This document shows positions 28,641 through 46,346 of a stretch of DNA of 64,000 nt, in pieces. Source of the stretch: Psychrobacter pygoscelis (GTDB lineage Bacteria > Pseudomonadota > Gammaproteobacteria > Pseudomonadales > Moraxellaceae); the NCBI RefSeq assembly GCF_004335015.1, contig NZ_RQRU01000001.1, forward strand, positions 434,001-498,000, written 5' to 3'. How positions within the stretch are numbered: position 1 is the first letter of the stretch; each line of letters starts with the position of its first letter. Position numbers and translations under genes: made by a program. The notes beneath the pieces were generated by a model. That model saw nothing but the letters and a program-made list of their open reading frames with translations. It was not told the origin of the DNA and did no database searches.

Positions 28641-28755
28641 ATACGGCAACCACTACCCACTCGGTACTCTCTCACTAGCTCCGGCTTAACTGCTAGGGCT
28701 AGTGACGGGATTACCAAAGCAGGTAAATTCTTATTCAATCTCGGAGCACACACCC

Positions 28756-30294: not shown

Positions 30295-31158
30295 ATGTCA
30301 ATTGATACTGTACAACCCTTGAATACGACCAATATGTATGAGGTGCAGCAAGATGAGAGCCAAGAGGGTATGCCCCCTATCGGTGACTCTGATATGAAGC
30401 TGTTGAAGGTATTGAGCCTGCTCATCGACTATCCGAGTAACGAGTTATTTGCCGACGATACCCTAGCGCAATGTCAGCAGATTGTAACCAGCTCGACGCT
30501 AATTAGCCCTGAGGTTCGGGCGCAAATTGTTGCTCTAATAGATGATTTGCTCAGCACGGACTCTTTAGAGGCGCAAGCGCGTTACGACGGTCTATTTGAG
30601 CGTGGTCGCTCTTTATCATTATGGCTGTTTGAGCATGTGCATGGAGAGTCTCGCGACCGTGGTCAAGCCATGGTGGATCTGATGGGTCAGTACGAAGCAG
30701 CTGGCTTTGAGATCGGTATCAAAGAGCTGCCTGACTATCTGCCTTTATATTTAGAGTTTTTGGCGTATCAAGCCGCAGTGACTGGTGACGACATTCAGAT
30801 TCGCATGGATATCGCTGACGTCAGCCATATCTTGGCTTTACTGGCAGCGCGCTTAAAAGATCGTGGCAGCCTATATTTAGGTTGCTTCAATGCGCTGCTA
30901 CAGATCGCTGGAAAGCCTTTAGAAATCGTTGATGATTATCAAGAAAAAATTAGCAAAGAGCAGCGCGATGACACCAAAGATGCGCTAGATAAAGAGTGGG
31001 AAGAAGAGGTGGTCGACTTTTTAGGGGCGCAGCAAGAAGAGCGCTGCCCATCCCAGACCAGTACGCAAAATTTAGCCGCCAAATCAGCCATTAAGAAACC
31101 AGCCAGTGCACCCGTCCACTGGGTCGACTTTAACAAGTCCTCAATGGCCAAAAATTAA
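30295..31158 (+). CDS. narJ: Nitrate reductase chaperone NarJ
   Basis: A 287-residue member of the TorD/NarJ chaperone family, which holds NarG until the Mo cofactor is inserted. It has the diagnostic LLIDYPSNELF, ARYDGLFERGRSLSLWLFEHVHGESRDRGQAM and ELPDYLPLYLEFLA. The N-terminal 30 residues and the acidic, Lys-rich C-terminal 60 residues extend beyond E. coli NarJ (236). The start codon abuts the narH stop, with GGGAGG 5 bases before it, so translation is coupled. narI follows after 14 bases. Confidence 0.95.
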   Translation: MSIDTVQPLNTTNMYEVQQDESQEGMPPIGDSDMKLLKVLSLLIDYPSNELFADDTLAQCQQIVTSSTLISPEVRAQIVALIDDLLSTDSLEAQARYDGLFERGRSLSLWLFEHVHGESRDRGQAMVDLMGQYEAAGFEIGIKELPDYLPLYLEFLAYQAAVTGDDIQIRMDIADVSHILALLAARLKDRGSLYLGCFNALLQIAGKPLEIVDDYQEKISKEQRDDTKDALDKEWEEEVVDFLGAQQEERCPSQTSTQNLAAKSAIKKPASAPVHWVDFNKSSMAKN

Positions 31159-31172
31159 TAAGGAGATTAGAT

Positions 31173-31898
31173 ATGAACGTTGCCGATCCTGGTATCCAGT
31201 CGTTAGCCAATCTAAACTGGATACAAATCTTCACTTTTGGAATCTATCCCTATATTGCTTTGGCCATTGCTATCATCGGTACTTGGGTGCGTTTTGACTT
31301 GTCTCAGTATTCTTGGAAGACCAATTCTTCTCAGATGATGAGTAATAAAAATATGCGCTGGGCCAGTAATCTATTTCACGTTGGTATTATTATTGTCCTA
31401 TTAGGTCACCTATTTGGGATGCTCACCCCACATTTTATCTACGAAACCTTCATCAGCGCAGCTCGTAAGCAGGTGTTAGCAGTCGTCGTAGGCGGGGTAG
31501 CTGGCGTGATCTGCTGGATAGGAATGGTGATGCTTATGTGGCGACGCTTTACCAATGATCGCGTCTCACATACCTCATCATTCTCGGACAAGCTGGTACT
31601 GGTGCTGCTATTCATCCAGTTAAATTTAGGTCTTGCTTCAATCTTTACCTCTATGCAGCATCTAGATGGCCTTACTATGATGAACCTTGCTGGTTGGGCG
31701 CAGGACATTACTATCCTCAGACCTTGGCACGCGGCAGCGCGAATCGAGCAAACCGATCTCATCTATCAGCTGCATATGGCATTGGGGATTACCTTAGTCA
31801 TGATCTTCCCGTTCACTCGTTTGATTCACATTATCAGTGCACCTGTCTGGTATTTGGGTCGACGCTACCAGATCGTCAGACAAAAAAGCGCCCAGTAA
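31173..31898 (+). CDS. narI: Respiratory nitrate reductase gamma subunit NarI
   Basis: A 241-residue membrane cytochrome b that oxidises quinol. It has five membrane helices and the four heme-b histidines His69, His79, His201 and His219, with the same spacing (10 and 18) as E. coli NarI. An AAGGAG ribosome-binding site sits 8 bases before the ATG. It closes the narGHJI operon; a large nested hairpin follows at 31951-32006. Confidence 0.96.
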   Translation: MNVADPGIQSLANLNWIQIFTFGIYPYIALAIAIIGTWVRFDLSQYSWKTNSSQMMSNKNMRWASNLFHVGIIIVLLGHLFGMLTPHFIYETFISAARKQVLAVVVGGVAGVICWIGMVMLMWRRFTNDRVSHTSSFSDKLVLVLLFIQLNLGLASIFTSMQHLDGLTMMNLAGWAQDITILRPWHAAARIEQTDLIYQLHMALGITLVMIFPFTRLIHIISAPVWYLGRRYQIVRQKSAQ

Positions 31899-32136: not shown

Positions 32137-32167
32137 TTTACATAAACATTCTTTAAAAATATATCTT
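32137..32167 (+). promoter_or_regulatory. hmp core promoter with overlapping NsrR-type operator
   Basis: A -35 box TTTACA (32137-32142), a 17-base spacer and a -10 box TATATC (32160-32165) form a good sigma-70 promoter. The NsrR-type site spans 32145-32167: left half AACATTCTTTA, one base, right half AAATATATCTT. The right half matches 10 of 11 bases of the gammaproteobacterial half-site AAATACATCTT; the left half matches 6 of 11. Binding would cover the spacer and -10, so repression is expected. Confidence 0.65.
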
Positions 32168-32294
32168 TAAACCTCATACAGGGCATCAAAGCGCATTAGC
32201 ATGAGTCGGCCTCAATTAAATTTGATCTTGACGACAATGACCGCTTTTAGCTTTTATTCTTTTTATAACCGTTATTGTCAATTAGGAGCCACCT

Positions 32295-33506
32295 ATGGCC
32301 AGCCCAAAGACTATCGAAATCGTTAAATCTACCGTTCCTGTACTAGAAGAGCATGGCACTACCATCACCAAAGTTTTCTATCAAAATATGTTCGCCGAGC
32401 ACCCAGAGCTGCTCGATATCTTTAATGAGACCAACCAAAAGATTGGCCGTCAGCAAAACGCCTTAGCGTCTACCGTTCTTGCCGCTGCCAAGCATCTCGA
32501 TCAGCTTGAAGTCCTATTACCACAAGTCACGCAGATTAGCCACAAGCACCGCGCCCTACAGATTAAGCCTGAGCACTACCCTATCGTCGGCAAGCACCTC
32601 CTTGGCGCTATCAAAGAAGTGCTTGGCGACGCCGCTAATGACGATATTATTAATGCTTGGGCAGAAGCCTACGGCGATATCGCTGAAGTATTTATCCAAC
32701 TCGAGCAAGCGATGTATGAGCAAGCAATGTGGGATGGCTTCGCGAGCTTTAAAGTAGTCGACAAGACGCTTACCGGCACAGATATTGCTGCTTTTACTGT
32801 TGTACCTAACCCCGATGCGACCAGTCAAAATAGCGATGAGGCGCAAAATATTGACCTTGATAAATTAACCTTAACCGCCGGTCAATACATCACGGTTAAG
32901 ACTGACCCTGAAGACAGCGATCATTTAGCACTACGTCACTATTCGTTATGCTCGACTCACACTGACAAAGGTATTCAGTTTGCAGTACGCCGGGATAACC
33001 GCGATGAGCATCGTGGCCTCGTATCCAACCACCTACACGATAATGTCGAAGTCGGCGACACCCTCTTACTCTCCGCCCCTGCAGGCGACTTTGCCCTCGA
33101 TAGCAGCTTGATCATGCAAAATGAGATTCCGTTAGCGCTTATCAGTGCTGGCGTCGGTATCACGCCTGTATTGGCAATGTTAGAGGCGCAAGTCAGCGCC
33201 AACCCAAAACGCCCTATAATCTGGGCTTATGCTTGTCAAAATGCCGAGCATCATGCTTTTAAAGCACGCGTAGAGGCATTATTAGAGCAAGCTGAGCAGG
33301 TTGAGAAGCATATCTTCTATTCTGAAGAGGGGCAGTTGTTAAATGAGGAGTGGCTGGCTACCTTGCCGGTTCCAGCTGATGTCTATACCTGTGGCTCTAT
33401 GGCATTTATGGATAGCATCATTGATGGTCTTATCGCCCTTAAGCATAGTGCCGATAGCGTGCACTATGAGCCATTTGGACCTAAGATGAGTCTAAAGACA
33501 GCATAG
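32295..33506 (+). CDS. hmp: Flavohemoglobin, nitric oxide dioxygenase
   Basis: A 403-residue three-domain enzyme that oxidises NO to nitrate. The globin domain (about 1-140) has the proximal His85 in ISHKHRAL, the same number as E. coli Hmp. The FAD domain (about 150-265) shows LRHYSLCSTHTDK, and the NAD domain (about 270-403) shows LISAGVGITPVLAML and a terminal FGPKM. AGGAG lies 8 bases before the ATG. It stands between narGHJI and the cofactor genes, which fits removal of NO made from nitrite. The promoter carries a candidate NsrR site. Confidence 0.96.
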   Translation: MASPKTIEIVKSTVPVLEEHGTTITKVFYQNMFAEHPELLDIFNETNQKIGRQQNALASTVLAAAKHLDQLEVLLPQVTQISHKHRALQIKPEHYPIVGKHLLGAIKEVLGDAANDDIINAWAEAYGDIAEVFIQLEQAMYEQAMWDGFASFKVVDKTLTGTDIAAFTVVPNPDATSQNSDEAQNIDLDKLTLTAGQYITVKTDPEDSDHLALRHYSLCSTHTDKGIQFAVRRDNRDEHRGLVSNHLHDNVEVGDTLLLSAPAGDFALDSSLIMQNEIPLALISAGVGITPVLAMLEAQVSANPKRPIIWAYACQNAEHHAFKARVEALLEQAEQVEKHIFYSEEGQLLNEEWLATLPVPADVYTCGSMAFMDSIIDGLIALKHSADSVHYEPFGPKMSLKTA

Positions 33507-33786
33507 TTTATAGACCATAGCGTTTATAGACATTAGCTTTTATGGCGAATCTACGCTATATCTGCTACAGAGCCATTGGCGAGATTTATACAGACTTAAG
33601 TCTATCGTGACTACTAGCAAGTAAATTTCACCAGTGGCTCATTAACTCATTAGCTGTTAATACAGTTGAGATCAATTTTATTAAATAGTGATGCTTAGCG
33701 AACCTTGATAATCCAGCCGCATCATCTCCTAAACCCTACATCCTTCACCTATTGTTAATCATTACCATTTTTTGCGGAGCCTTCCC

Positions 33787-34785
33787 ATGACGGTCAGTAC
33801 TTATAATCCTGCTACCAACAGCAATAGTGAATCCAGTGCGGCGCCTTCTAACGAAGCTTTGAGCAATGACGATAATATTCGTATCATGCCTACCAGCGCT
33901 GATCTCAAGAAGCCACACTCGGACAAAGAGCTCATCGAGCAGGCGCTAGCAGAAGAGCGCCGCGATCATAGCAATCTTATTGCCTCAAGCCGTGATGAGC
34001 TGCCGACGATTCATATTAATGGTGTCATGCTAGATAAAAAAGCTATTGCAGAAGAACTACAATACCACCCTGCTGATAGTAAAGAAGATGCGGTATTTCT
34101 AGCGGCGCAAGCCCTGGTGGTGCGTGAGCTATTAAAGCAGGCGGTACTGGCTGATCCTGAGTTAGGAGAAAACGCTTGGCAGCATGACGAGGAGCAAGCC
34201 ATCTCCGCGCTTATTGACAAGCATGTTCAAGCCGCTACCCCAGATAAAGCCACTTGCGAGCGCTACTATCAGCAGAATCAGTCAAGCTTCGTCACGCCGC
34301 CACTGATGTCAGTGCGCCATATCCTACTGGCCTGCTTGCCTGAAGATGGTGAAGAGCGCTTGGCGCTTAAAAAGCAGGCTTATGAGCTGATTGAACAAAT
34401 TACTCAAAGTAGCAATCCTACTGCTGAATTTATCGGGCTGGCTGAACGCTACTCTGCTTGTCCCTCTAAATCGCAAGGCGGTGAGCTTGGGGTTATATCC
34501 AAAGGCCAGACCGTCCCTGAGTTTGAGAGTGTGCTATTTAGTTTAGACAAAGGTCTAGCGCCCAGCCCTATTGAATCACGCTACGGCTTTCATATTGTTG
34601 AGGTTACTGACAAACAAGCTGGTATTCAGATGAGCTATGAGCAGGCCTATCCTGCGATAGCCAATCAGCTTAGTCAGCAGGCCTTCCACCATGCGTTATG
34701 TGACTATTTATATGCCCTAGCAGATTCGGCAGATATTGACGGTATCGAAATGGCGCTAACCCAAGAAAACATCTTTCGCGGCTAA
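33787..34785 (+). CDS. Parvulin-type peptidyl-prolyl cis-trans isomerase (nitrate-region type)
   Basis: A 332-residue protein with a parvulin domain at about residues 175-285: VRHILLACLPEDG, a helix, FIGLAERYSACPSKSQGGELG and ESRYGFHIVEV. A helical N-terminal chaperone-like part precedes it (NifM/SurA layout). No signal peptide or membrane helix is seen, so it is probably cytoplasmic. In Pseudomonas aeruginosa a PpiC-type gene (PA3871) sits just after narGHJI and before moaA1, so this is a conserved neighbour; a folding role in nitrate reductase assembly is suggested, not proven. ATG 33787 has GGAG 8 bases upstream. Confidence 0.88.
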   Translation: MTVSTYNPATNSNSESSAAPSNEALSNDDNIRIMPTSADLKKPHSDKELIEQALAEERRDHSNLIASSRDELPTIHINGVMLDKKAIAEELQYHPADSKEDAVFLAAQALVVRELLKQAVLADPELGENAWQHDEEQAISALIDKHVQAATPDKATCERYYQQNQSSFVTPPLMSVRHILLACLPEDGEERLALKKQAYELIEQITQSSNPTAEFIGLAERYSACPSKSQGGELGVISKGQTVPEFESVLFSLDKGLAPSPIESRYGFHIVEVTDKQAGIQMSYEQAYPAIANQLSQQAFHHALCDYLYALADSADIDGIEMALTQENIFRG

Positions 34786-34899
34786 GCTAATAGCTAAGCC
34801 AATAAAGCTATATTTTAATACTTTAACAATAGGATAATTGGTAAGTAACGCCTTATCTTGTGTTACTCTTGATTTGAATATATGACGGGTCCGACTATC

Positions 34900-36195
34900 A
34901 TGATAACTGTAGAACAACTCCAAGCTGCGATTCATAAGCGAGTAGAAACTTTCAACCAGGCCGACTATCCACTCAGTGCTAGAGCACTTGAGCAAGTCGA
35001 GCTACTAGCCTGTCAGAATCAAATACTTGGAGAGGATATTGCCTCACCCTTTGATGTGCCAAGGCAGAATATCTCAGCAATGGATGGCTTTGCCTTTGCT
35101 AAAGGCAGTAGCTTAGAGGCGGGTAATAGTATAACGATCATCGGTGAGTCTCAGGCAGGCTCACCTTTTGTTGGGACACTAAATGCGGATCAAGGCGTGC
35201 GTATATTTACCGGCGCCGTCGTACCGCTCGCCTGCGATACCGTAGAGATGCAAGAGAATACGAATTTTGCTGATATTAAAGACACTTTAGATAAGTCTAA
35301 ACCTTATAGTATAACGCTGAATAAAGCCGTTAAGCTCAAAAATAATATTCGCTACCAAGGCGAAGAGATTGCCAAAGATGAAGCGGTGCTAAGCCGTGGT
35401 AAGCGTCTTAACCCCACGGATATCAGTCTCCTAGCTAATCTAGGGATTGCTAAAGTATCGGTATATAAGCCCTTAACCATAGGCTTGCTTTCCACAGGTG
35501 ATGAGCTAGTGGCTATCGGTGAGCCGCTTACCCATCAAGCGCAGATTTATAACTCCAATACCCCTACTCTCAAAAGCTTACTTAAACCATTACCGATTAC
35601 TATTAATGACTATGGTATCATTCCAGACGACTTGTCAGCGACCACGCAGGCAGTAGCACAGGCCATGAGTGAATGCGACGTGCTCATCTCGACAGCTGGC
35701 GTTTCGGTAGGCGACTATGACTTCTTGACCACTGTCATTGAACAGTTGGGAAAAATCAACCATTACAAAGTCGCCATGAAGCCGGGCAAGCCCTTTGTAT
35801 TTGGCGAATTAACACAAAATCTTGATACCCCAGTTCTATATTTTGGTCTACCGGGCAATCCACTATCTGCTGTCGTGGGTGCTTTAAATTTGGTCATTCC
35901 AGCTTTGTGGCAGATGACTGGCGCACTAGCCAGTGAAACACCTAAGACATTGCAGCTGACCGCCACCTTACTAGATGATGTCAAAAAATCACCAGGGCGC
36001 GTAGACTTTCAGCGTGGTATCTTGTCTCAAGATGAGTCAGGAGCGTATCAAGTTTCTGTCTTTAAGAGTCAACAGTCCCATCGTATCAAGCAGTTGAGCC
36101 AAGCCAACTGCCTAGTTGTACTAGCCAAAGATAGTGGTAGCGCTGCTGCTGGTAGTCAGGTACAAGTACAGCCTTTCCCTTGGCTATTAGCTTAA
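34900..36195 (+). CDS. moeA: Molybdopterin molybdenumtransferase MoeA
   Basis: A 431-residue enzyme that inserts molybdate into adenylated molybdopterin. Domain order is normal: N-terminal linker with VPRQNISAMDGFAF (ligand loop), a beta-rich insert with GVRIFTGAVVPLACDTVEMQE, the MogA-like domain with GLLSTGDELV, STAGVSVGDYDF, KPGKPFVFG and GLPGNPLSAVVG, and a C-terminal beta barrel. I chose ATG 34900. ATG 34882 would add six residues; neither has a clear ribosome-binding site. It starts the run of molybdenum cofactor genes after the isomerase gene. Confidence 0.94.
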   Translation: MITVEQLQAAIHKRVETFNQADYPLSARALEQVELLACQNQILGEDIASPFDVPRQNISAMDGFAFAKGSSLEAGNSITIIGESQAGSPFVGTLNADQGVRIFTGAVVPLACDTVEMQENTNFADIKDTLDKSKPYSITLNKAVKLKNNIRYQGEEIAKDEAVLSRGKRLNPTDISLLANLGIAKVSVYKPLTIGLLSTGDELVAIGEPLTHQAQIYNSNTPTLKSLLKPLPITINDYGIIPDDLSATTQAVAQAMSECDVLISTAGVSVGDYDFLTTVIEQLGKINHYKVAMKPGKPFVFGELTQNLDTPVLYFGLPGNPLSAVVGALNLVIPALWQMTGALASETPKTLQLTATLLDDVKKSPGRVDFQRGILSQDESGAYQVSVFKSQQSHRIKQLSQANCLVVLAKDSGSAAAGSQVQVQPFPWLLA

Positions 36196-36408
36196 AAAGT
36201 GGTTAACTTAAATCAGCCGCTTTGTTGTGGGTGGAATGATCTTATGGCTGCTTGCTACTCTACTACCAAAGTAGTAGTGAGGATTCATAAGGTTAATGGT
36301 TAATCGCTATAAATCTGCCATAATACAATCTCTAATAATTTCTCTAATAATTTTCAACTCTCAACCTGAGGCAACGCTTAGAGCACACGACATATACGGT
36401 AACAAACT

Positions 36409-37557
36409 ATGAGCCAAGCAGTCCGTCCTTTAGGGGATGCCCACCTATATATTCCCACGCCTTCTCCTCGAAGCAGTGATCTACCTATGTCTGTAGCCAC
36501 GTCTGTGTCTTCATCTGTACCTACAACATCGGCTCCTGCTATAAACTCCTCAACCGCTAATATCTCAAACACGCAAACCACGCAAAAATTGACGGATAAT
36601 TTCTCTCGGCAATTGGCCTATCTACGACTGTCCATCACTGACTTTTGTAATTTTAGCTGTGAGTATTGCTTGCCGAATGGCTATCAAGGCAAACGGCCAA
36701 AGAATGAGCTTACCGTTGCAGAAATTGAGACCTTAGTGCGCGGCTTTGCTCAAGTTGGTACCAAAAAAGTACGCATTACTGGCGGTGAACCCTCAATCCG
36801 CCGTGATGTGGTCGATATAATCGATACGATTAAGCAGACTCCTGGTATCGAGACGGTAGCGATGACCAGTAATGGTTATAAGCTTGGGCGTCACCTAGCC
36901 GCGTGGCAAGCAGCAGGGTTGAATCAAATCAACATCAGTATCGACAGCTTCGATGCGGCTACCTTTCATAGTATGACTGGCTTTAATATATTGCCGCAGC
37001 TGCTGACTGATATGGATCAATTGCTTGAGACCACGGACATTAAGCTGAAAATAAATAGTATTTTGATGGCAGAGACCGCCTTTGATAATCTCATTAATGC
37101 GATGGCCTACATCAAAGATCGCCCTGTGACCTACCGCTTTATTGAGTTTATGCAGACCAGTGACAATAGCGATCTTTTCTTCGCCCAGCATGCTCACTCA
37201 GCCCTGATTACCAATTATTTGCTTAATCATGGCTGGCGGGCGCATGAGCGTGGTAGTAACGATGGTCCAGCGGTAGAATACAGCCACCCTGACTATGTCG
37301 GTCGTATCGGTATGATCGCACCTTACGCCGCGCATTTTTGTGACAGCTGTAATCGTCTACGGGTGAGCAGTCAAGGCAAGGTACATCTGTGCTTATTTGA
37401 CCAAGGCAATTATGACATTAGGCCTTATTTACAGAATCAAGACGTGGATGGACTGATCCAAACGCTACAAAGCTTTATGCCGATCAAGCCTGAGCATCAC
37501 CATCTCCATGAGTCCGATAGTGGCATCATGCATAACCTATCGATTATCGGCGGTTAG
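36409..37557 (+). CDS. moaA: GTP 3',8-cyclase MoaA
   Basis: A 382-residue radical-SAM enzyme, the first step of molybdenum cofactor synthesis. The radical-SAM cluster is CNFSCEYC (C-x3-C-x2-C), followed by RITGGEPSIRRD. The second cluster near the C-terminus is CDSCNRLR with a third Cys at VHLC. It ends in IIGG, the double glycine needed for activity. The first 65 residues or so are a Ser/Thr/Pro-rich extension not usual in MoaA. If a later start is used (Met27 at 36487) part of this is lost; no good ribosome-binding site decides it. Confidence 0.94.
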   Translation: MSQAVRPLGDAHLYIPTPSPRSSDLPMSVATSVSSSVPTTSAPAINSSTANISNTQTTQKLTDNFSRQLAYLRLSITDFCNFSCEYCLPNGYQGKRPKNELTVAEIETLVRGFAQVGTKKVRITGGEPSIRRDVVDIIDTIKQTPGIETVAMTSNGYKLGRHLAAWQAAGLNQINISIDSFDAATFHSMTGFNILPQLLTDMDQLLETTDIKLKINSILMAETAFDNLINAMAYIKDRPVTYRFIEFMQTSDNSDLFFAQHAHSALITNYLLNHGWRAHERGSNDGPAVEYSHPDYVGRIGMIAPYAAHFCDSCNRLRVSSQGKVHLCLFDQGNYDIRPYLQNQDVDGLIQTLQSFMPIKPEHHHLHESDSGIMHNLSIIGG

Positions 37558-37684
37558 AGAACCTAAAGCGTATAAGGCGCATGATGGCAGCGCCACTGTC
37601 TTCGGTTAAAGTCAAACTACAGAACAAGTAACTTACTGAATTTAACCTGCCAAATTTATTTTAATTATTAATTAAGGAGTCTCA

Positions 37685-38215
37685 ATGTCCAAGCCTGAAG
37701 CGAAATTTATTCCACTTAATATTGCGGTTTTAACCGTCTCTGACAGCCGCACGCTAGCAGAAGATACCTCGGGGCAATATCTCGCAGACTCCCTCACCGC
37801 TGCCGGACATAATCTTGCCGATCGCAAGCTTATTACTGATGATATTTATCAGATTCGCGCCGTGTTAAGTGCTTGGATAGCAGACCCTAACGTTCATGCT
37901 GTGATTACCACTGGTGGTACAGGATTCTATATTCGTGACAGTATGCCAGAGGCGGCCAGCGTGTTATTCGACAAGAGTATCGATGGCTTTGGCGAGATGT
38001 TTCGTCTGATATCTAAAGATGAGATTGGCATGTCTACCGTGCAATCGCGCGCGATTGCTGGCATGGCGAATGGTACGGGTATCTTTTGCTTGCCCGGCTC
38101 CTCAGGGGCCTGTCGAACTGGCTGGGAGCAGATTCTAAAAGAGCAATTCGATAGCCGCACTCGTCCCTGCAACTTTGTGCCCCACTTTTTACGCAGTAAC
38201 CCAACTCATGACTAA
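37685..38215 (+). CDS. moaB: Molybdopterin biosynthesis protein MoaB (MogA-like)
   Basis: A 176-residue MogA/MoaB-fold protein that adenylates molybdopterin before metal insertion, or acts in place of MogA. It has NIAVLTVSDSRTLAEDTSGQ, AVITTGGTGFYIRDSMPEA and PGSSGACRTGW, all typical. AAGGAG lies 6-7 bases before the ATG. Its last 8 bases overlap the start of mobA, so the two are coupled. Confidence 0.94.
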   Translation: MSKPEAKFIPLNIAVLTVSDSRTLAEDTSGQYLADSLTAAGHNLADRKLITDDIYQIRAVLSAWIADPNVHAVITTGGTGFYIRDSMPEAASVLFDKSIDGFGEMFRLISKDEIGMSTVQSRAIAGMANGTGIFCLPGSSGACRTGWEQILKEQFDSRTRPCNFVPHFLRSNPTHD

Positions 38216-39020
38216 TCAAACCAACAGTACGATCGACCCTGACACGACTGATAAGCTTGGTTCTACAGACAATAGCGACTTTTACGGCTTAGATAACCTA
38301 GCTGCTGTCGTTATTGTCGCAGGCGGCGAGTCAAAGAGAATGGGCTCAGCCAAAGCTCAACTCTCACTGCCCTCTAATGAGCGGCTTTTGGATTATCATG
38401 TGCGCCATGCCAGCCAGCTTGGCGTGCCAATTATGATCGCAGATAATGAGCGCGGTTTTACAGTGGATCAAGCGCTATTGCTTGACCCATCCACTGCCCC
38501 GCTACTGCATATCAAAGACTATCGCCCTACCATTGAGACAGCGGACAGTAAACCTGCTGGGGCATTGGCCGCTATTGCCTCTGCGATGCAGGTACTGACT
38601 GAGTTAGGTGGCAATCGAGCGTTATCCGCTAATGAAAGCCAAGCTTCAAGCACGCCAGAATGGCTGATGGTGCTTAGCTGTGACAGCTTAATTACGGCGA
38701 CTGACCTGTGGCAAGTACTACAGCCAGTCTTAACCAGAAATACTGCTAAGGCCAAGGCTCAAAATCTCTCGCCTGATGATAGTCAAAAGCAGTCTGTGAT
38801 CTGTCTGGCAGATGCTGATATTCCTTACCCCCTTTTGGGAGTTTATCACTTAGCTGTTTATCCTGAATTAATTAACTATCTGGATCGTGGTGAGCGCCGA
38901 GTGATTAAGTTCATTGAACCATTATACGAGCTGCTCCCTCTACCTTTAGAGTGGCAGCAGCTGGCTAATTTGAATACCCCAGATGACTTTAAAACGGCCT
39001 GTGCGCAGCTGTCGTTTTAA
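38208..39020 (+). CDS. mobA: Molybdenum cofactor guanylyltransferase MobA
   Basis: A 270-residue nucleotidyltransferase that adds GMP to make the bis-MGD form used by NarG. The N-terminal nucleotide loop is VVIVAGGESKRMGSAKAQL, and a later segment, LMVLSCDSLI, stands for the metal-binding Asp motif (usually PCD). The C-terminal part is degenerate compared with E. coli MobA and longer than the usual 195 residues. The ATG at 38208 lies inside the end of moaB; a GTG at 38175 is in frame but less likely. Need for MGD by NarG and gene position support the call. Confidence 0.87.
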   Translation: MTNQTNSTIDPDTTDKLGSTDNSDFYGLDNLAAVVIVAGGESKRMGSAKAQLSLPSNERLLDYHVRHASQLGVPIMIADNERGFTVDQALLLDPSTAPLLHIKDYRPTIETADSKPAGALAAIASAMQVLTELGGNRALSANESQASSTPEWLMVLSCDSLITATDLWQVLQPVLTRNTAKAKAQNLSPDDSQKQSVICLADADIPYPLLGVYHLAVYPELINYLDRGERRVIKFIEPLYELLPLPLEWQQLANLNTPDDFKTACAQLSF

Positions 39021-39085
39021 GCTCGCCGCTGCCTTATTCTTAGTTAATAAATCCTATATCCATTATCTTTAGACTGAAAAATGCT

Positions 39086-39598
39086 ATGAGCGAATCACAT
39101 TCTCAAACACCACCTGCTACTTTATCGCATCTCGACAGCGATGGTGATATCCATATGGTGGACGTCAGTGCTAAAACAGCGACGACTAGGCAAGCTTGCG
39201 CCTCAGGCTACGTGCGTTTTCCAGCAGATATCTATGCTCAAATTAAAGACGCCGACGGCATGACTAAGAAGGGTAGCATTACCCAAACGGCACATATCGC
39301 GGGCATTATGGCAGCCAAGCGCACCCATGACCTAATTCCGCTCTGTCACCCGCTACCACTAGATAAGATCGGTCTTACCTTTAGTTATGAAGACGCCGGT
39401 CACGCCATTGCAGTGACAGCGACGGTCAAGGTAACGCATAAAACTGGCGTTGAGATGGAGGCGCTAACAGCAGTCAGCGTCGCCTGCTTGACCCTATACG
39501 ACATGACCAAAGCATTATCGCATGACATTATTATCGATAATATTCGGCTGGTTACCAAAACGGGCGGTAAGTCGGATTATCAGCAGCCGTCTACCTGA
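39086..39598 (+). CDS. moaC: Cyclic pyranopterin monophosphate synthase MoaC
   Basis: A 170-residue enzyme that converts the MoaA product to cyclic pyranopterin monophosphate. Signatures are HMVDVSAKTATTRQA, AHIAGIMAAKRTHDLIPLCHPLPL and KTGVEMEALTAVSVACLTLYDMTKAL. Length and active-site blocks are normal. The ribosome-binding site is poor. It sits between mobA and moaD with short gaps and is probably in the same transcript. Confidence 0.96.
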   Translation: MSESHSQTPPATLSHLDSDGDIHMVDVSAKTATTRQACASGYVRFPADIYAQIKDADGMTKKGSITQTAHIAGIMAAKRTHDLIPLCHPLPLDKIGLTFSYEDAGHAIAVTATVKVTHKTGVEMEALTAVSVACLTLYDMTKALSHDIIIDNIRLVTKTGGKSDYQQPST

Positions 39599-39679
39599 CC
39601 TCTATAAATCAATGGGAATGATCGATTAATAATTTAGTACCATTTATTACCATCAGTAGTACTATCAGGAAAACCCAAT

Positions 39680-39922
39680 ATGAAAATTACGGTCTTATAT
39701 TTTGCCAGCTTAGCCGATAAAGCTGGCATTGCTCAAGAAACATTGACGCTTGAGCCGCCAGTAACGCTACCTGAACTGTTTGAGCAACTTAATGGCCAGT
39801 ATCATTTTGGCCGTGAGCAGTCGCAACTTGGCGTCGCTATTAATGATAGCTTTGCCGAGTGGTCAGATATGATTGAGGATGGTGACCAAGTTGCCTTTAT
39901 TCCGCCAGTCGCTGGTGGTTAA
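39680..39922 (+). CDS. moaD: Molybdopterin synthase sulfur carrier MoaD
   Basis: An 80-residue ubiquitin-like protein ending in FIPPVAGG; the terminal Gly-Gly carries the thiocarboxylate. AGGA lies 9-10 bases before the ATG. It acts with MoaE, encoded 115 bases downstream, to make molybdopterin from cyclic pyranopterin. Confidence 0.95.
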   Translation: MKITVLYFASLADKAGIAQETLTLEPPVTLPELFEQLNGQYHFGREQSQLGVAINDSFAEWSDMIEDGDQVAFIPPVAGG

Positions 39923-40037
39923 CTTATTAAAGCTTATGACCTTCGCTATTAATGCTGCTTAGGCTATTTTTATTGTTTAAAGCACATCTCCTTAGATAGC
40001 AAGTGATACTCATAATGACATTGAGCAAGTGGATACT

Positions 40038-40550
40038 ATGAATAATTCAAACTCTAAAGCAGAAGATACTGTTCATGAGCGCTCTATGCGTATCAATCGT
40101 AGCGCCGACGAAGCTTATAGCATTGCCCAGCAAGACGGCTTTGCGCTATTAGATATCGCGATTGACGAGGTCAGACTTAAAAACATGCTACAAGATGACA
40201 GCTGCGGCGCTTTAGCTACCTTTGAGGGCTGGGTTCGCAACCATAACAACGCTACTCAAGTATCCAAGCTCACCTACTACGGCTACGAAAACTTAGCGCT
40301 CAATCAAGGCCGCGCTATTATTGCAGAGGCCAAACGCCGCTTTGATATTACTCAAGCGGTTGCCATACATCGTATTGGTGCATTAGAGATTGGCGATATG
40401 GCGGTCTGGATTGGCGTGGCCTCAAGCCATCGCTATCCGGCATTTGATGCCTGCCGCTGGATACTAGACACCATTAAGGCTGATATTCCTATTTGGAAGC
40501 AAGAATACTACGGCGATAACTCTTCTGAGTGGCTGAGCAACAACGGATAA
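40038..40550 (+). CDS. moaE: Molybdopterin synthase catalytic subunit MoaE
   Basis: A 170-residue subunit. Typical blocks are CGALATFEGWVRNHN, LTYYGYENLA, IHRIGALEIGDMAVWIGVASSHRYPAF and ADIPIWKQEYYG with the active-site Lys. I chose ATG 40038; a GTG nine bases earlier and a later Met (MRINRSADEA) are possible. The latter would give a size closer to E. coli MoaE (150). It closes the moa run; a hemerythrin-type gene follows. Confidence 0.95.
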   Translation: MNNSNSKAEDTVHERSMRINRSADEAYSIAQQDGFALLDIAIDEVRLKNMLQDDSCGALATFEGWVRNHNNATQVSKLTYYGYENLALNQGRAIIAEAKRRFDITQAVAIHRIGALEIGDMAVWIGVASSHRYPAFDACRWILDTIKADIPIWKQEYYGDNSSEWLSNNG

Positions 40551-40679
40551 ACTCGAAAGAATCTATGGATGAAGTCTGGGGTCAATTTTAATAATCAACT
40601 TTAATCATTAGATTTGATGTTAATAGAATTGATATTAACAGTAACTCGGTTTCACAACCGCCTACTTAAAAGGATTATT

Positions 40680-41147
40680 ATGAAACGTGCCAAACAACTC
40701 CAGCCTTTATCCCGCGAGCATCATTTAGGCCTTCATCTTGGCCGTCATGGCAGAGAGTGCCCTGATAACCCTGCACAAATTAACCAACACTGGACCGCGC
40801 TGACCAACTATATTAATAAGGACATGACGCATCACTTTAGTATTGAGGATAATCTATTAGTCAATGCGTTAATGCCCTTTAAAGAACAAGATCCGGAAGT
40901 GGCAGCGGTACTGAAAACTCTCGAAGCGCAACATCATGAGTTAGACGAGTTATCGCAATTACCTGCCGGTCAAGATACGCCTACCATCGAGCAAGTACAT
41001 AAGCTTGCTAACGCCCTCTACGCTCATGTGCGCTTTGAAGAGCGGCAGCTGTTCCCTACTGCTGAGCAGTTTCTAAGCGAGGCAGAATTGGACGAGATCT
41101 ACGCCGCTAGCGCTGACAATGTCAAAAAGATTGATGAGCATCGATAA
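40680..41147 (+). CDS. Hemerythrin-domain (HHE) protein
   Basis: A 155-residue four-helix protein with the diiron histidine pattern: SREHHLGLHLGRH near the start, THHFSIEDNLL near residue 50, EAQHHELDEL near 85, and YAHVRFEERQLFP near 120. Such proteins bind O2 or NO or, like YtfE, take part in iron-sulfur repair after nitrosative damage. It lacks the N-terminal Cys domain of YtfE. Start is ATG 40680 with AAAAGGA 7-8 bases upstream. Its place between moaE and a YeaR-like gene suggests a role in NO defence, which is an inference. Confidence 0.88.
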   Translation: MKRAKQLQPLSREHHLGLHLGRHGRECPDNPAQINQHWTALTNYINKDMTHHFSIEDNLLVNALMPFKEQDPEVAAVLKTLEAQHHELDELSQLPAGQDTPTIEQVHKLANALYAHVRFEERQLFPTAEQFLSEAELDEIYAASADNVKKIDEHR

Positions 41148-41285
41148 CCGTAGCTCGAATGATTTTAGCGGCCTGCGGTTTAAATAAGCTGTTAGCCTTT
41201 TATAAGACAAGTTTTGTGAGACAAATTTACGAGTTAAGTTTGCTCGTTAAATGCCTATCTATAAGCCAATTTACAAGGAGTTACC

Positions 41286-41690
41286 ATGAGTCATCAAGTG
41301 ATACCTAGCCATTGGCGAGTAAAGCGCTCCACGCCCTTTTTTACCAAAGACAATGTTCCCCAAGCCTTACTGACGCATCACAATACTGCTGAAGGGGTGT
41401 TTGGTCAGATTTGCGTGATGCAAGGGGTCGTTACCTTTTATGGCTTTGCTAACGAAGAAGCGACAGAGCCTGAAAAAAAGGTAGTGATTAATGCGGGACA
41501 ATTTGCCACTAGCCCGCCGCAGTATTGGCACCGCGTAGAGTTAAGTGACGATGCCCAGTTTAATATTAACTTCTGGACTGACCCAAGCTTAAGCAATAGC
41601 AAAGAAGCTGGCAGTAATAAGATGTTTAACAGCTCTAAAATTCATAGCAAACCTATTGAAAAATTATTTGATAAACCAGAAGACAAGTAA
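41286..41690 (+). CDS. DUF1971 (YeaR/TehB-N-like) protein
   Basis: A 134-residue cupin-like protein. About residues 10-100 match DUF1971: KRSTPFFTKDNVPQALLTHHNTAEGVFGQICVMQG in outline, then FATSPPQYWHRVELSDDAQFNINFW. E. coli YeaR, of the same family, is induced by nitrate through NarL and repressed by NsrR. Here it sits at the end of the cofactor genes, next to the nsrR operon. AAGGAG is 7 bases before the ATG. I saw no NsrR-like site just upstream. Molecular function is unknown. Confidence 0.85.
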   Translation: MSHQVIPSHWRVKRSTPFFTKDNVPQALLTHHNTAEGVFGQICVMQGVVTFYGFANEEATEPEKKVVINAGQFATSPPQYWHRVELSDDAQFNINFWTDPSLSNSKEAGSNKMFNSSKIHSKPIEKLFDKPEDK

Positions 41691-41720
41691 AATCATTGCG
41701 TTTAAAAACCACTAAAAAAT

Positions 41721-41752
41721 AAGGTGTTGACTAAAAAAGCCAACACCTTTTA
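41721..41752. terminator. Terminator shared by convergent genes
   Basis: AAGGTGTTG pairs with CAACACCTT around an A-rich loop and is followed by TTTAT; the left side is A-rich. It lies between the YeaR-like gene and modB and can serve both directions. Confidence 0.8.
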
Positions 41753-41800
41753 TCTCAATAAGCTAATACTTAACGTATTTATTATCAGCATGTTTATTAG

Positions 41801-42514
41801 TTATGAGCGCTGGCCAAACTTATTGACGCTAGCAATGAGACTGACCATGACCATACCTAGGATGATAAGCACAAGGGACATGGTGTGCGCCGCCTCATAG
41901 TTTAGTGACTCCACCTGCTCGTAAATGGCAATAGACACCACCTTGGTCTCCCCAGCGATACTGCCACCAATCATCAGCACCACGCCAAACTCACCAATTG
42001 TATGCGCAAAGCTAATCAAACTACCAAGAATGATACCTACTTTGGCCTGCGGCAGTGCCACGGTCATAAAGCGGCGCAAGCGGCTAGACTCTAATAGCTG
42101 CGCCATCTCCGTCACACTTTTTGGAATTCGCAAAAACTGCGCATACACCGGTTGAATATAAAATGGCAGAGAGTAAATGATAGAGCCGATGACCAAGCCC
42201 TCAAAGGTAAAGGCTAAGGCACTAATATTATGCCGAGCGAGCCAGTGACCAACGCCAAAGCTCGGACTCATCAGCAGTAGTAAGTAAAAGCCAATGACAG
42301 TCGGCGGCAGCACTAATGGCATAGCAATCACCCCCATCAGCACTATCTTAAAGCGCTCAATGATACGTCGAGGGCTAGGCTTGGCCAACCAATAAGCGAG
42401 CGGCGTAGCGACCAGCAACAAACACAAAGTCGTGACGCCAGCTAGCTTGATACTCAGCCAGATTGGCCTGAGCATATCTAGCAAAAGCGGTGATAAAAGA
42501 GACGATTGCAGCAT
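41801..42514 (-). CDS. modB: Molybdate ABC transporter permease ModB
   Basis: A 237-residue inner-membrane permease with about five or six helices. The EAA loop for contact with the ATPase is visible as EMAQLLESSRLRRFMTVALPQAKVGI. The preceding MPLVLPPTVIGFYLL and following HTIGEFGVVLMIGGSIAGET are typical of ModB. It follows modA by 46 bases on the minus strand. No modC follows: the next gene is convergent and unrelated, so the ATPase must be encoded elsewhere or be shared. Confidence 0.95.
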   Translation of the reverse strand: MLQSSLLSPLLLDMLRPIWLSIKLAGVTTLCLLLVATPLAYWLAKPSPRRIIERFKIVLMGVIAMPLVLPPTVIGFYLLLLMSPSFGVGHWLARHNISALAFTFEGLVIGSIIYSLPFYIQPVYAQFLRIPKSVTEMAQLLESSRLRRFMTVALPQAKVGIILGSLISFAHTIGEFGVVLMIGGSIAGETKVVSIAIYEQVESLNYEAAHTMSLVLIILGMVMVSLIASVNKFGQRS

Positions 42515-42560
42515 CTTAACGTCGATGTCAGTGGGTGGTCGCTATAGTCTACTTGACTGC

Positions 42561-43436
42561 CTACTGAACCGCTACCGATTCTGAGGACTGCTGAACAGGC
42601 AGATACCCTGCTCGTGCAAATTGCTGTTGACCTGCCTCAGATTGTAAATACTCTGCAAAGTCGGCAGCACTAGACGACTCAGTGATGACTACGCCATCTT
42701 GCAAGATTGGTGGATAGGCGTCTGCAGGTAAGGTCGCAAACTGCGAATCGGGCGCCTTAACTGCCACTACCTGCGACTGTGCCACAAAGCCATAATCGAC
42801 ATTACCCGTGTGCGTATACTGAAAGGTCTGACCGATATTTTCAGCTTGGATTATCCGCTTTTGGGCGGTTAAATCTTGATAGAGCTGCTGCGACTCAAGG
42901 TAAGCTTTGGCGGATGCGCCATACGGTGCAAGCTCTGGATTAGCGATAGCGATCTTACTCGTCGGCTGCGAATTAATAATAGCAGTCAACGAAGTCTGGC
43001 TTAACGGGCCGATAGGTTGAGATTGCGTCACACTATATAGTGCCAATTGTCCTCGAGCATAAGTAAAGGGCTGCCGCGCTGGAGTATTTTGCCCCCGCTC
43101 TTGGATGAGCTTGGCAGGATAGTCTTGATTGGCAGCCAGATACAGATCATAGGGCGCACCCGCCTGAATTTGGGCAAATAGTTTCCCTGATGAGCCATAG
43201 GTTACCTCTATATCTTGCACGGATGAATGATGCTCAGCTTTATAATCGTCAATAATGAGGGGTAAGACATCGGCAAGGTTAGCTGCAGCAGCAATGTGCA
43301 ATACAGCACCCTCATTCGCTGAAGCAGAATCTGCAAGCGTGCGCTTAGCTTGACTTTGATCACTACAAGATATCAGCGCCACACTACTCGCTATAATCGC
43401 CCCTGTTAAAACTTTAGATCTAAAACGGTAACTCAC
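42561..43436 (-). CDS. modA: Molybdate-binding lipoprotein ModA
   Basis: A 291-residue substrate-binding protein. The signal peptide ends in a lipobox, VALISC, so it is probably a lipoprotein anchored in the membrane. VTYGSSGKLFAQIQAGAPYDLYLAAN and AIANPELAPYGASAKAYLE are ModA signatures around the oxyanion pocket. I chose the GTG at 43436: GGGAG lies 8 bases upstream and its first four bases overlap the nsrR stop (GTGA). A TTG five codons earlier is less likely. Coupling to nsrR ties molybdate uptake to NO control. Confidence 0.93.
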   Translation of the reverse strand: MSYRFRSKVLTGAIIASSVALISCSDQSQAKRTLADSASANEGAVLHIAAAANLADVLPLIIDDYKAEHHSSVQDIEVTYGSSGKLFAQIQAGAPYDLYLAANQDYPAKLIQERGQNTPARQPFTYARGQLALYSVTQSQPIGPLSQTSLTAIINSQPTSKIAIANPELAPYGASAKAYLESQQLYQDLTAQKRIIQAENIGQTFQYTHTGNVDYGFVAQSQVVAVKAPDSQFATLPADAYPPILQDGVVITESSSAADFAEYLQSEAGQQQFARAGYLPVQQSSESVAVQ

Positions 43437-43903
43437 TTCAATAACTCCCAAAGCATCTGTTCATTTTGGACAATGTCCGCCAATGTATAGCCATCCATTA
43501 CGGCTATAAAAGCTATTGTGGCTTCTCTGAAGATTCGCTTTAACCGGCAAGCTGGCTGAATAGCACAGGGCGCGCCTATACGCTCTTTTTGGCCAGCATC
43601 TGCGGTCTTATTCATGACTTCAAAACAAGGCACAACATCAAAGTCCGGTTCAGTTTGTCGAACCACATCGCCAAGATTAATCTGTTCGGCAGGACGACCT
43701 AAGCGAATACCGCCATTTTTCCCACGGACACTTTCAATAAATCCTAACTGGGCCAATTGATGAATAACTTTCGTTAAGTGACTCTTCGATATCTGATAAC
43801 TGTCCGCTATCTCGCTGATGGTGGCAAGTTTAGTCGCGTCAGGCATCACTGCCAAATACATTAGAGTGCGGAGCGCGTAATCGCTATAGTTGGTTAAGCG
43901 CAT
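43433..43903 (-). CDS. nsrR: NO-sensing transcriptional repressor NsrR
   Basis: A 156-residue Rrf2-family repressor. The winged helix includes ISKSHLTKVIHQLAQLGFIESVRGKNGGIRLG, as in NsrR. Cluster ligands are Cys93, Cys113 and Cys119 in ...VVPCFEV and GAPCAIQPACRLK. The spacing between the first and second Cys is 20, against 5 in E. coli NsrR (Cys91, Cys96, Cys102), so about 15 residues are inserted in the cluster loop. The C-terminal helix with YTLADIV is typical. AGGATT lies 6-7 bases before the ATG. It leads nsrR-modA-modB and is divergent from a CopD-like gene. Confidence 0.9.
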   Translation of the reverse strand: MRLTNYSDYALRTLMYLAVMPDATKLATISEIADSYQISKSHLTKVIHQLAQLGFIESVRGKNGGIRLGRPAEQINLGDVVRQTEPDFDVVPCFEVMNKTADAGQKERIGAPCAIQPACRLKRIFREATIAFIAVMDGYTLADIVQNEQMLWELLK

Positions 43904-43961
43904 AAGAATCCTATAGACTGGAGTTTATATCCAATAAAATGGATTAAAAGATGAGTATATA

Positions 43962-43984
43962 ATGCCATATTTCAAATGAATGTT
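43962..43984. promoter_or_regulatory. Candidate NsrR operator between nsrR and CopD-like gene
   Basis: Left half ATGCCATATTT and right half AAATGAATGTT, separated by one base. The right half is identical to that of the nnrS site. On the plus strand a TATAAT box (43984-43989) begins at the edge of the site, and on the minus strand a TATACT box lies just beyond it, so one operator could control both directions, including nsrR itself. Confidence 0.6.
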
Positions 43985-44027
43985 ATAATAAACCATTGAT
44001 TAATAGCTACTCCGAGACTTAAGCTTT

Positions 44028-44468
44028 ATGCTCAATTACCTTTTAATCGCGCATTTATTAGCGGCAACTATCTGGACCGGTGGCCACTTAATATTAGCGA
44101 TTGGTGTTCTTCCCAAGGTGCTGATTAGCCGCCACATCGAGACTTTGATCGCTTTTGAAAGTCAATTCGAAAAAGTTGGCATGCCAGCCTTGGCTATCCA
44201 AGTAGTAACCGGCTTGTGGATGGCGCACAGAATGCTGCCAGATGTCCACTCTTGGTTCACCTTAAACAATGATATTAGTATGTTAATCAGTCTGAAGCTG
44301 GCAATACTCCTGACGACAATTATCGTTGCGCTTCATGCTCGCTTTCGCGTCATCCCCACCCTTCAAGACAGCTCACTTAATTGGTTCGCAGCCCACATCT
44401 TTACTGTCACTGCCTTGTCCGTAGGCTTCGTCATTGTGGGCAGTCTATTTCGCACTGGGCTTGGTTAA
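44028..44468 (+). CDS. CopD-like four-helix membrane protein
   Basis: A 146-residue protein with four membrane helices (about 3-28, 52-70, 85-108 and 120-142). Histidines His9 and His20 in helix 1, His103 at the end of helix 3 and His123 in helix 4 are placed as in heme-b or copper-binding membrane proteins. The closest pattern I recognise is the CopD/DUF2269-like family. It has no known enzymatic motif. It is divergent from nsrR and shares its candidate NsrR operator, and nnrS lies just downstream on the other strand, so a role in NO or heme handling is suggested. Confidence 0.7.
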   Translation: MLNYLLIAHLLAATIWTGGHLILAIGVLPKVLISRHIETLIAFESQFEKVGMPALAIQVVTGLWMAHRMLPDVHSWFTLNNDISMLISLKLAILLTTIIVALHARFRVIPTLQDSSLNWFAAHIFTVTALSVGFVIVGSLFRTGLG

Positions 44469-44646
44469 CAAATACAGCAGTTAGCTCAAGCATAAATTAG
44501 CTTATAAAATACTATCGTAAACCAATAACTGCGCTCTAATAACCTTATACTTCCCTTGATACAAACTCATAAAGTGACTGAGATCGAATAAGGGTCGAAT
44601 AATTATTCCCAGCCACTCTATAGACCGTTAATGCCTCTTAGCACTA

Positions 44647-45882
44647 TTAACCAAATAGCTTATCTGGTCTTGGTTTTGACAATATCGGGATATAGGTAAT
44701 GCAGAATAATACAAAGCAGAGTATCCAAGCCGACTGCGCTATCATCAACCACATGGTGTAATAATCCATAGCAACTAGCGGTAGCAAAACCCGAAAGACA
44801 AAAGCACACCCCATTAATACAAACATCGCGACGACCGCTTTTGGTGGCTGATGAATACTACGACCCGTATGGCCTAAGGATACCCTCGACATCATAGCAA
44901 CCGTCATCATACCCACCCCTGAGATAGCTAAGGCATGAACAGCAAGGCTATGGCTAAAGCCTAACCACGGCTGAATCGCAAATAAGGCAAAGGCCAAACA
45001 CATGCCCAAAAATGCTAAGTACAGTGACCAAAGCAATGGCTTTTGCCAAATACCGCGATGATACCAGCCTAATAAGCGAATGACATTGACCAAGCCTACG
45101 CCCAAGGCGCTCATACTAAGCAGATATTTATTGGGATAGAAGACATCAACGATCAAAAATACCAAGAAGGTCAACAAACTCAGCACATCAAGTACGCGGC
45201 TGTTTTTAACCTGCACTTCTTTATCACCGTCAAAGCTAATGCCCCGCTCGATAAAGAACGGTACTACGCGGCGGCCGATCGTCAGTACAATACCAAGGAT
45301 AAGATAAAGACCGAGATAAACCCCAATGCGGACGTACTCCATATTGCCACTATATATACCCCAGTAGCACAGGCCATTGCCGATAGTTAGCAAGGTCAAT
45401 TTAGAGATAATCCCCATCTGTTTATATTGCTTGACGCTCATAACTGCTTGGGTAATCACGCCGGCACTCCACAGCATAAAGAGCAAATCAAATATTGCCG
45501 CTATGGCTAACCAATGCTTGGGGCTTCCTACGCCTACGCCCACAGCAATCCAACCGAACCGCGCCAACAGCCAACAGCTAAATATACCCAGCAGACGATA
45601 ACCATAAGGCATCATAACCCCAGTCCAAGTCTTAACCGCCGTCAGCAAAAAGCCGGCAATAATCGCCATCGTGTAGCCATATAGCATCTCATGAGCATGC
45701 CAATAAAGTGGGTTAATGGTCATGACATCGATCTCAGTCTTGCCCATGAACACAAATACCCACAACAGCATTGTCACAATGGCAAACACTGCTCCACCAC
45801 TAAAGAAGATACGAAAGGCAAGATTTAAGATAGCATGCGGTGACGTTGGTCGATCACTGGGAGACTGAATTTGCAGCATCAT
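44647..45882 (-). CDS. nnrS: NnrS family heme-copper membrane protein
   Basis: A 411-residue protein with about twelve membrane helices. NnrS signatures are visible: LNLAFRIFFSGGAVFAIVTMLLW near the start, YWHAHEMLYGYTMAIIAGFLLTAVKTWTG (His pair for metal), GRRVVPFFIERG and HALAISGVGMMTVAMMSRVSLGHTGR. NnrS proteins protect against nitrosative stress and are often under NO control. The start is ATGATG with GAGG close upstream; the second ATG is equally possible. A candidate NsrR operator sits 16-38 bases before the start. Confidence 0.95.
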   Translation of the reverse strand: MMLQIQSPSDRPTSPHAILNLAFRIFFSGGAVFAIVTMLLWVFVFMGKTEIDVMTINPLYWHAHEMLYGYTMAIIAGFLLTAVKTWTGVMMPYGYRLLGIFSCWLLARFGWIAVGVGVGSPKHWLAIAAIFDLLFMLWSAGVITQAVMSVKQYKQMGIISKLTLLTIGNGLCYWGIYSGNMEYVRIGVYLGLYLILGIVLTIGRRVVPFFIERGISFDGDKEVQVKNSRVLDVLSLLTFLVFLIVDVFYPNKYLLSMSALGVGLVNVIRLLGWYHRGIWQKPLLWSLYLAFLGMCLAFALFAIQPWLGFSHSLAVHALAISGVGMMTVAMMSRVSLGHTGRSIHQPPKAVVAMFVLMGCAFVFRVLLPLVAMDYYTMWLMIAQSAWILCFVLFCITYIPILSKPRPDKLFG

Positions 45883-45897
45883 AGCGCCTCTGGCTTA

Positions 45898-45920
45898 AAG
45901 GTATATTTAAAATGAATGTT
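45898..45920 (-). promoter_or_regulatory. Candidate NsrR operator of nnrS
   Basis: Left half AAGGTATATTT and right half AAATGAATGTT with a one-base spacer. Against the E. coli-type pattern (AAGATGTATTT, one base, AAATACATCTT) it matches 9 and 8 of 11. A minus-strand -10 box TATAAT lies at 45930-45935, so the operator covers the likely transcription start. Confidence 0.7.
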
Positions 45921-46346
45921 TATGTATAAATTATAATACATTAGCCTCTAGAAGCCTAGTAAGTAATTTGCACTCAGATCAAATGACGTTCGTTTAGTCA
46001 TGCTGTGATTCTCTTAGAACATACCTTCTGTTAGCGCGCCACCTCTATTAGCTTATAAGGCTTCAAATGAGCGCGATTTTTGTCAGTCAAAGCAAGTCTT
46101 GTAGAGAATATACTTATATTGTCTACAACATTATAAAGATTGACCTAGCTAACCATCAGCGTCATAAAACATCCGTCTCAATAACTAAGCGTTAAGCCCT
46201 TATACGCTATAAAGTTTATATGACCTACCCCACGCCGTGCTGTCTTTATCATTGCCAGCTGTTAGTCTCAAAACTGATAATGATTAATCGACAAAGTCAA
46301 TAAATGGCTTGTCTAAATTTCCAGTGAGCTACGCGCGCTCTGGCAA
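45921..46346. other. Intergenic region upstream of nnrS and the VIT pseudogene
   Basis: About 425 bases. Apart from the nnrS -10 box, no gene or repeat is recognised. The missing 5' part of the VIT1/CCC1 gene is not found here. Confidence 0.4.

Follow-up and report, generated by a model that had tools for sequence, protein, structure and literature searches.

A candidate NsrR nitric oxide regulon in Psychrobacter, with predicted operators at hmp, nnrS, norB and copD

Three candidate NsrR-type operators were found in a 64-kb stretch of Psychrobacter pygoscelis DNA (the whole stretch is called the window below), located at hmp, at nnrS and in the spacer between nsrR and a copD-like gene. The motif occurs together with nsrR in the genus Psychrobacter, and the sites at hmp and nnrS are conserved before the corresponding genes of other members. 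We consider it highly probable that the sites belong to an NsrR nitric oxide (NO) regulon of the Psychrobacter genome, in which the site at 43962 mainly represses copD and feedback on nsrR comes mostly from its position behind nnrS.

Without NO, iron-sulfur NsrR would occupy 23-bp palindromes (consensus AACATTCATTTnAAATGAATGTT) and block RNA polymerase at hmp, nnrS and norB, the last of which lies outside the window. NO would attack the NsrR cluster, NsrR would leave the DNA and the NO-removing genes would then be expressed. At 43962, where the site lies over the predicted copD promoter, repression would fall mainly on copD; the divergent nsrR, with modAB behind it, would be affected secondarily if at all, and only in a few lineages. 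For most of the genus, feedback would reach nsrR through its position as the gene behind nnrS. We infer NsrR binding, repression, the NO response, promoter overlap and the co-transcription of nnrS with nsrR from the sequence.

The locus and its three sites

Upstream of hmp lie the narGHJI nitrate reductase genes (24864..31898, plus strand), open reading frames named by reading alone. The hmp gene (32295..33506, plus strand) encodes a flavohemoprotein NO dioxygenase with Pfam globin, FAD and NAD domains, and it scored 403.8 bits against NF009805 (NO-inducible flavohemoprotein), below the curated cut-off of 432. Further along the window are nsrR (43433..43903, minus strand), encoding an Rrf2-family repressor of 156 amino acids with Asp8 and Cys93/113/119, the copD-like membrane protein gene (44028..44468, plus strand; 146 amino acids; PF05425 CopD, 43.1 bits) and nnrS (44647..45882, minus strand), encoding a membrane protein (PF05940 NnrS, 332.5 bits). 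A terminator scan of 43850-46100 returned one candidate, inside nnrS, compared with 2.1 in shuffles. Behind nsrR on the same strand lie modA and modB (window 41801-43903), with the modA reading frame overlapping the nsrR end; the order nsrR-modA-modB is likewise found in G006 and G078, and through these genes an operator at nsrR might act on molybdate uptake.

The preliminary description had reported three 23-bp sites together with their right halves, and all of these were read directly in the sequence. The candidate operator at hmp, AACATTCTTTAAAAATATATCTT (32145-32167), lies within the 396-bp narI-hmp spacer, where it overlaps no promoter match in a consensus scan; a second, ATGCCATATTTCAAATGAATGTT (43962-43984), lies in the spacer between nsrR (minus strand) and the CopD-like gene (plus strand); and a third, AAGGTATATTTAAAATGAATGTT (45898-45920), lies 5' of nnrS (minus strand), 15 bp from the start codon. 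Sites were scored with a matrix built from 37 norB-promoter sites of 19 genomes, none of them from the window. Over the 64 kb, the top three positions were those at nnrS (25.3 bits), hmp (20.1 bits) and nsrR/copD (9.6 bits), with the next at 1.6 bits, and of the window's 47 upstream regions no more than four exceeded 2 bits, at nnrS, hmp, copD and nsrR, with copD and nsrR sharing one site. When 3 Mb of order-3 Markov sequence was scanned, the hmp and nnrS scores were not reached at any position and the nsrR/copD score at three, which corresponds to about 0.0003 such positions per 300-bp promoter. Of the three sites, that at nsrR/copD is clearly the weakest, its right half being perfect and its left half poor.

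FNR-like boxes with at most one mismatch number 14 in the window, versus 3.2 expected from shuffles. The sole perfect box (30929) falls within the narJ gene, and the hmp promoter contains no box of this kind; we therefore claim no dual control involving FNR.

Conservation across the genus and sites outside the window

The genus was surveyed in 105 genomes, with nsrR called from a match at E 1e-15 or better and up to three mismatches allowed in the motif. An nsrR match was found in 91 genomes, in one of them (G102) truncated. The motif was present in all 91, as against 2 of the 14 without a match (Fisher 4.7e-14, a value that ignores ancestry), and a reversed-pattern control was found in 3 of the 105. 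The two motif-bearing exceptions are a genome that is 77% complete (G081) and one in which nsrR is represented by a fragment at the end of a contig (G095). Part of the co-occurrence is co-loss, as 8 of the 14 nsrR-less genomes also lack hmp and nnrS. Where nsrR-less genomes have kept targets, no site was found at hmp (G026 and G104) or at nnrS (G104); none was seen at the nnrS gene of G074, the 5' end of which is uncertain. G005, which has an nsrR remnant only, retains a 24.1-bit site at nnrS. In the family outside the genus, an nsrR-like match was found in 142 of 194 genomes, the motif in 30 and the reversed control in 3, and no site of at least 6 bits was present in any of four Moraxella loci, indicating that the exact motif is a feature of the genus and not of the family.

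At hmp, agreement with 18 or more of the 22 consensus positions was found in 28 of the 30 best loci, that of the window among them; this count covers L064-L093 only, leaves aside 12 further hmp loci that were chosen by motif, and comes from a locus table that has repeats of the same genome. The two loci without the operator belong to G006 and G102, and in the near relative G006 neither of the two hmp genes has a site. Before nnrS, the operator was found at 83 of the 83 genes adjoining nsrR. At L262-L265 (G003 C33, G104 C4) a nar island was observed that carries hmp and nnrS copies of its own, and these copies have no NsrR sites either in G003, which has nsrR, or in G104, which lacks it. The earlier proposal that NsrR controls hmp and nnrS is well supported, as a prediction, by the conservation of the sites and, inside the genus, by their occurrence together with nsrR, and the expected conservation of operators upstream of orthologs holds at these two genes while failing at nsrR/copD (3 of 91).

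The regulon had also been described as physically joined to the nitrate genes. While narI is present in 46 of the 105 genus genomes, 30 of these (own included) entered the nar-locus comparison. In 17 of the 30, hmp lies directly 3' of narI, with an operator in the spacer in 14; the spacers without one are those of G006 (216 bp), G003 (60 bp) and G104 (60 bp). The gene order nar-hmp-ppi-moeA-moaA is also found in these three genomes, and the remaining 13 nar loci have a peptidyl-prolyl isomerase gene behind narI. Within about 15 kb of hmp, nsrR is found in 7 of the 82 genomes that have both (counted by eye; short contigs may hide more). The junction with the nitrate genes is thus borne out for hmp, whereas proximity of nsrR to hmp is rare.

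The 3.4-Mb genome contains seven copies of the right half shared by the nsrR/copD and nnrS sites, AAATGAATGTT. A pair of them makes up a perfect palindrome at C11:586780-586802, and another copy is part of a second site at C11:586990-587012; these two sites are located 247 and 37 bp, respectively, 5' of the start of a 754-amino-acid protein, about 107 kb away from the site at nnrS; further half-site matches lie at C11:124259 and C22:201871. By our reading the 754-amino-acid protein is a putative quinol-type NO reductase, NorB; no NCBIfam model passed 0.001 for it. The sites before norB are the best of the genome, and all 19 norB promoters compared carry a site, mostly two each, these being the sites on which the matrix was trained. 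A compact regulon confined to the 14-kb span is therefore wrong, because the strongest operators stand before norB, about 107 kb away.

A site also precedes L242, a gene above the cut-off for Cu nitrite reductase (TIGR02376, 378.4 bits), and the look-alikes of L242 in other genomes, which are known by resemblance and not by model scores, have a site as well. NsrR-type sites were observed before small lipoprotein-like genes of 122-141 amino acids (L249, L250, L252, L253 and L247, from G038, G039, G040, G044 and G032), where the lipobox is our own reading; the two of these genes that were compared with Pfam gave no match. In G039, which is without hmp, a DUF1971 gene (L251 2016-2450) related to window 41286-41690 has a 34.1-bit NsrR site at its start.

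The site between nsrR and copD

An operator in the nsrR/copD spacer was found in 3 of the 91 genomes with nsrR (G000, G077 and G078), all of which have copD between nnrS and nsrR. This arrangement occurs in 12 genomes; the operator was found in none of the 79 genomes without copD, an association for which the Fisher value is 0.0018 (ignoring ancestry). The other nine copD genomes have no site of at least 7 bits there, while G087 and G006 retain 8 of the 11 bases of the right half.

The predicted copD promoter (43962..43989, plus strand) comprises a -35 element ATGCCA (43962-43967), a spacer of 16 and a -10 element TATAAT (43984-43989) preceded by TG. With 10 of 12 consensus positions matched it is the best of seven promoter matches in the region, and seven matches are no more than shuffles give. 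The 23-mer begins with the opening base of the -35 element and closes on that of the -10 element. In 10 of the 12 copD genomes a TATAAT is found 35-118 bp 5' of copD. In G000, G077 and G078 the operator terminates at one and the same base of this hexamer, a shared register that is favoured by the selection of the -10 hexamer through the best half-site match of its upstream bases. Operators that run into a TATAAT-like box (at least 5 of 6 bases) are a minority at norB (15/35), hmp (15/37) and nnrS (14/70).

On the simplest reading, copD is the likelier target of the 43962 site: the site falls on the predicted copD promoter, scores lowest of the three and was found in 3 of the 91 nsrR genomes. 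Given the divergent arrangement of the two genes, nsrR may respond to it as well. Where copD is absent, nsrR follows nnrS on the same strand in 71 genomes, at a distance of 31-415 bp (median 134), so that feedback there would act at the nnrS operator, provided that the two genes are co-transcribed. Possible nnrS-nsrR operons have already been noted in other bacteria, in the passages of Rodionov et al. 2005 (PMC1274295) used here. A late insertion of copD into an nnrS-nsrR operon was considered: in an nnrS tree (41 of 84 rows, midpoint root) copD genomes fall on both sides of the root, making repeated copD loss as likely as insertion, and we claim neither.

In the preliminary description the 43962 site was an autoregulatory operator of nsrR and the 14-kb span a compact, self-contained NO regulon, an interpretation that we now think unlikely. 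There is a real site 59-81 bp before the nsrR start codon, the spacer is common to the divergent nsrR and copD, and in 6 of 7 distant named loci from outside the family (mostly betaproteobacterial MAGs) a matching site stands directly before nsrR, the best scoring 24.4-27.0 bits. However, 88 of the 91 nsrR genomes lack such a site, and here it coincides with the predicted -35 and -10 elements of copD, leaving autoregulation from this position weak; the regulon members outside the 14-kb span argue against self-containment. It is also rather improbable that the 43962 element is the copD promoter alone, with its extended -10 TGTTATAAT imitating the end of a half-site. Such a reading would fit the poor left half, the part of the match that the -35 and -10 hexamers account for, and the nine of 12 copD genomes without an operator, seven of which still have TATAAT before copD. 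Yet the promoter accounts for only the last few of the 11 bases that match, out of 11, in the right half, and G077 and G078 carry sites of 18.6 and 22.8 bits in the same register at copD.

Use of the palindrome by another regulator, such as a different Rrf2 protein, NarL or FNR, appears very improbable to us. The genome does contain a second, weaker Rrf2 match, and narL and a NarX/NarQ-like kinase gene lie within the window. Against this, a weaker match to Rrf2 (best E values from 5e-10 to 9e-8) persists in 11 of the 12 motif-less genomes of the genus, and the targets are the classical NsrR set, as given in the parts of PMC1274295 drawn upon.

NsrR and its relation to known systems

The best NCBIfam model for the putative repressor is NF008240 (NsrR), with 152.9 bits against a cut-off of 182. 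Among 14 control genomes one passed this cut-off; E. coli and B. subtilis both match the model, and since NsrR is present in each (according to a database record and to a passage of PMC1274295, respectively), at least one true NsrR scores below the cut-off. The Rrf2 domain PF02082 reached 124.3 bits (cut-off 30), and the best relative in the PDB is the HTH-type repressor NsrR (5n07). Cys93 and the motif containing the second and third cysteines were found in 90 of 92 genus reading frames, the other two being the truncated gene of G102 and the remnant of G005. Asp8 is present in 69 of 69 named Psychrobacter loci, which are largely the same genomes as the genus survey and so not an independent sample. 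The alignment comprised 80 named relatives (these 69, four Moraxella and seven others); the peptide patterns behind it include the recognition helix, and helix sharing among the matches therefore proves nothing.

Cys93 and Cys113 are separated by 19 residues, compared with 4 in E. coli. This insert (window 43433-43903, residues 93-113) is hypervariable, with 15-57 residues in 90 genus proteins, 23-45 in the four Moraxella and 7 in the seven other relatives; in an AlphaFold model from 14 sequences (mean pLDDT 77.8), residues 101-114 have pLDDT below 50. If a short turn between the first two cysteines (4 residues in E. coli, 5 in Streptomyces coelicolor) is taken as an NsrR trait, the protein departs from it, and we regard the long loop as variation rather than as a defining feature because the cluster ligands and targets agree. 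The closest solved relative, S. coelicolor NsrR (PMC5411485, in the passages available), has three Cys ligands and Asp8, as here, with 5 residues from Cys93 to Cys99 as opposed to 19 here and 15-57 in the genus. According to those passages its short turn between ligands 1 and 2 relays the cluster state to the DNA-recognition helix, being oriented to contact the DNA backbone and helping to place that helix. Since a long loop replaces this turn, the coupling of cluster to DNA may differ here. It is conceivable, though we advance it tentatively, that the NsrR proteins of Psychrobacter and Moraxella form a structurally distinct class, in which a disordered, fast-evolving loop of 15-57 residues stands in place of the turn and the NO signal would have to be relayed differently; here, an operator merged with the copD core promoter would make a copper-domain membrane protein NO-inducible, and in most of the genus nsrR feedback would run via the nnrS operator.

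The sites resemble and differ from those of the NsrR regulon of gamma- and betaproteobacteria as set out in the accessible passages of Rodionov et al. 2005 (PMC1274295), the main text of which has no occurrence of Psychrobacter. There, as here, a palindrome precedes hmp and nnrS, and in several betaproteobacteria also norB and nirK, the same kinds of target as here. The consensus gATGyAT-N5-ATrCATc of that report contrasts with ATTCAT-N5-ATGAAT here: its G4 is not kept, with T in 83% (norB), 96% (hmp) and 90% (nnrS) of halves, and an E. coli-type NsrR consensus had no match in the window. The sites are 11-1-11 palindromes, the form that the preliminary description gave for gammaproteobacterial NsrR, and lie at NO-detoxification genes, but the T/A exchange at positions 4 and 16 sets them apart from the general gammaproteobacterial motif. 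T and A also replace G4 and C16 in the Neisseria motif of the same report, where norB and nirK are targets; compared with the Neisseria system as that paper presents it, the placement of hmp behind narI and an operator at copD set the present case apart. Within the same family, nsrR, aniA and norB of Moraxella catarrhalis rise together on cold shock (PMC3699543); an operator is not described in the passages of that report available to us, and none was found near nsrR in four other Moraxella. No published description of an NsrR regulon in Psychrobacter was found in the papers searched, which included passages of PMC6080646 and PMC3699543. The predicted regulon is well supported and of a known kind.

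In summary, the analysis puts forward an NsrR regulon that can be tested in a widespread, cold-adapted genus, where natural losses of the regulator serve as controls; after nsrR loss, operators are seen both missing and persisting. The genus presents two wirings of the same repressor, with nsrR right behind nnrS or set apart from it by copD. The long and variable sensor loop, moreover, calls into question the generality of the published coupling from cluster to DNA.
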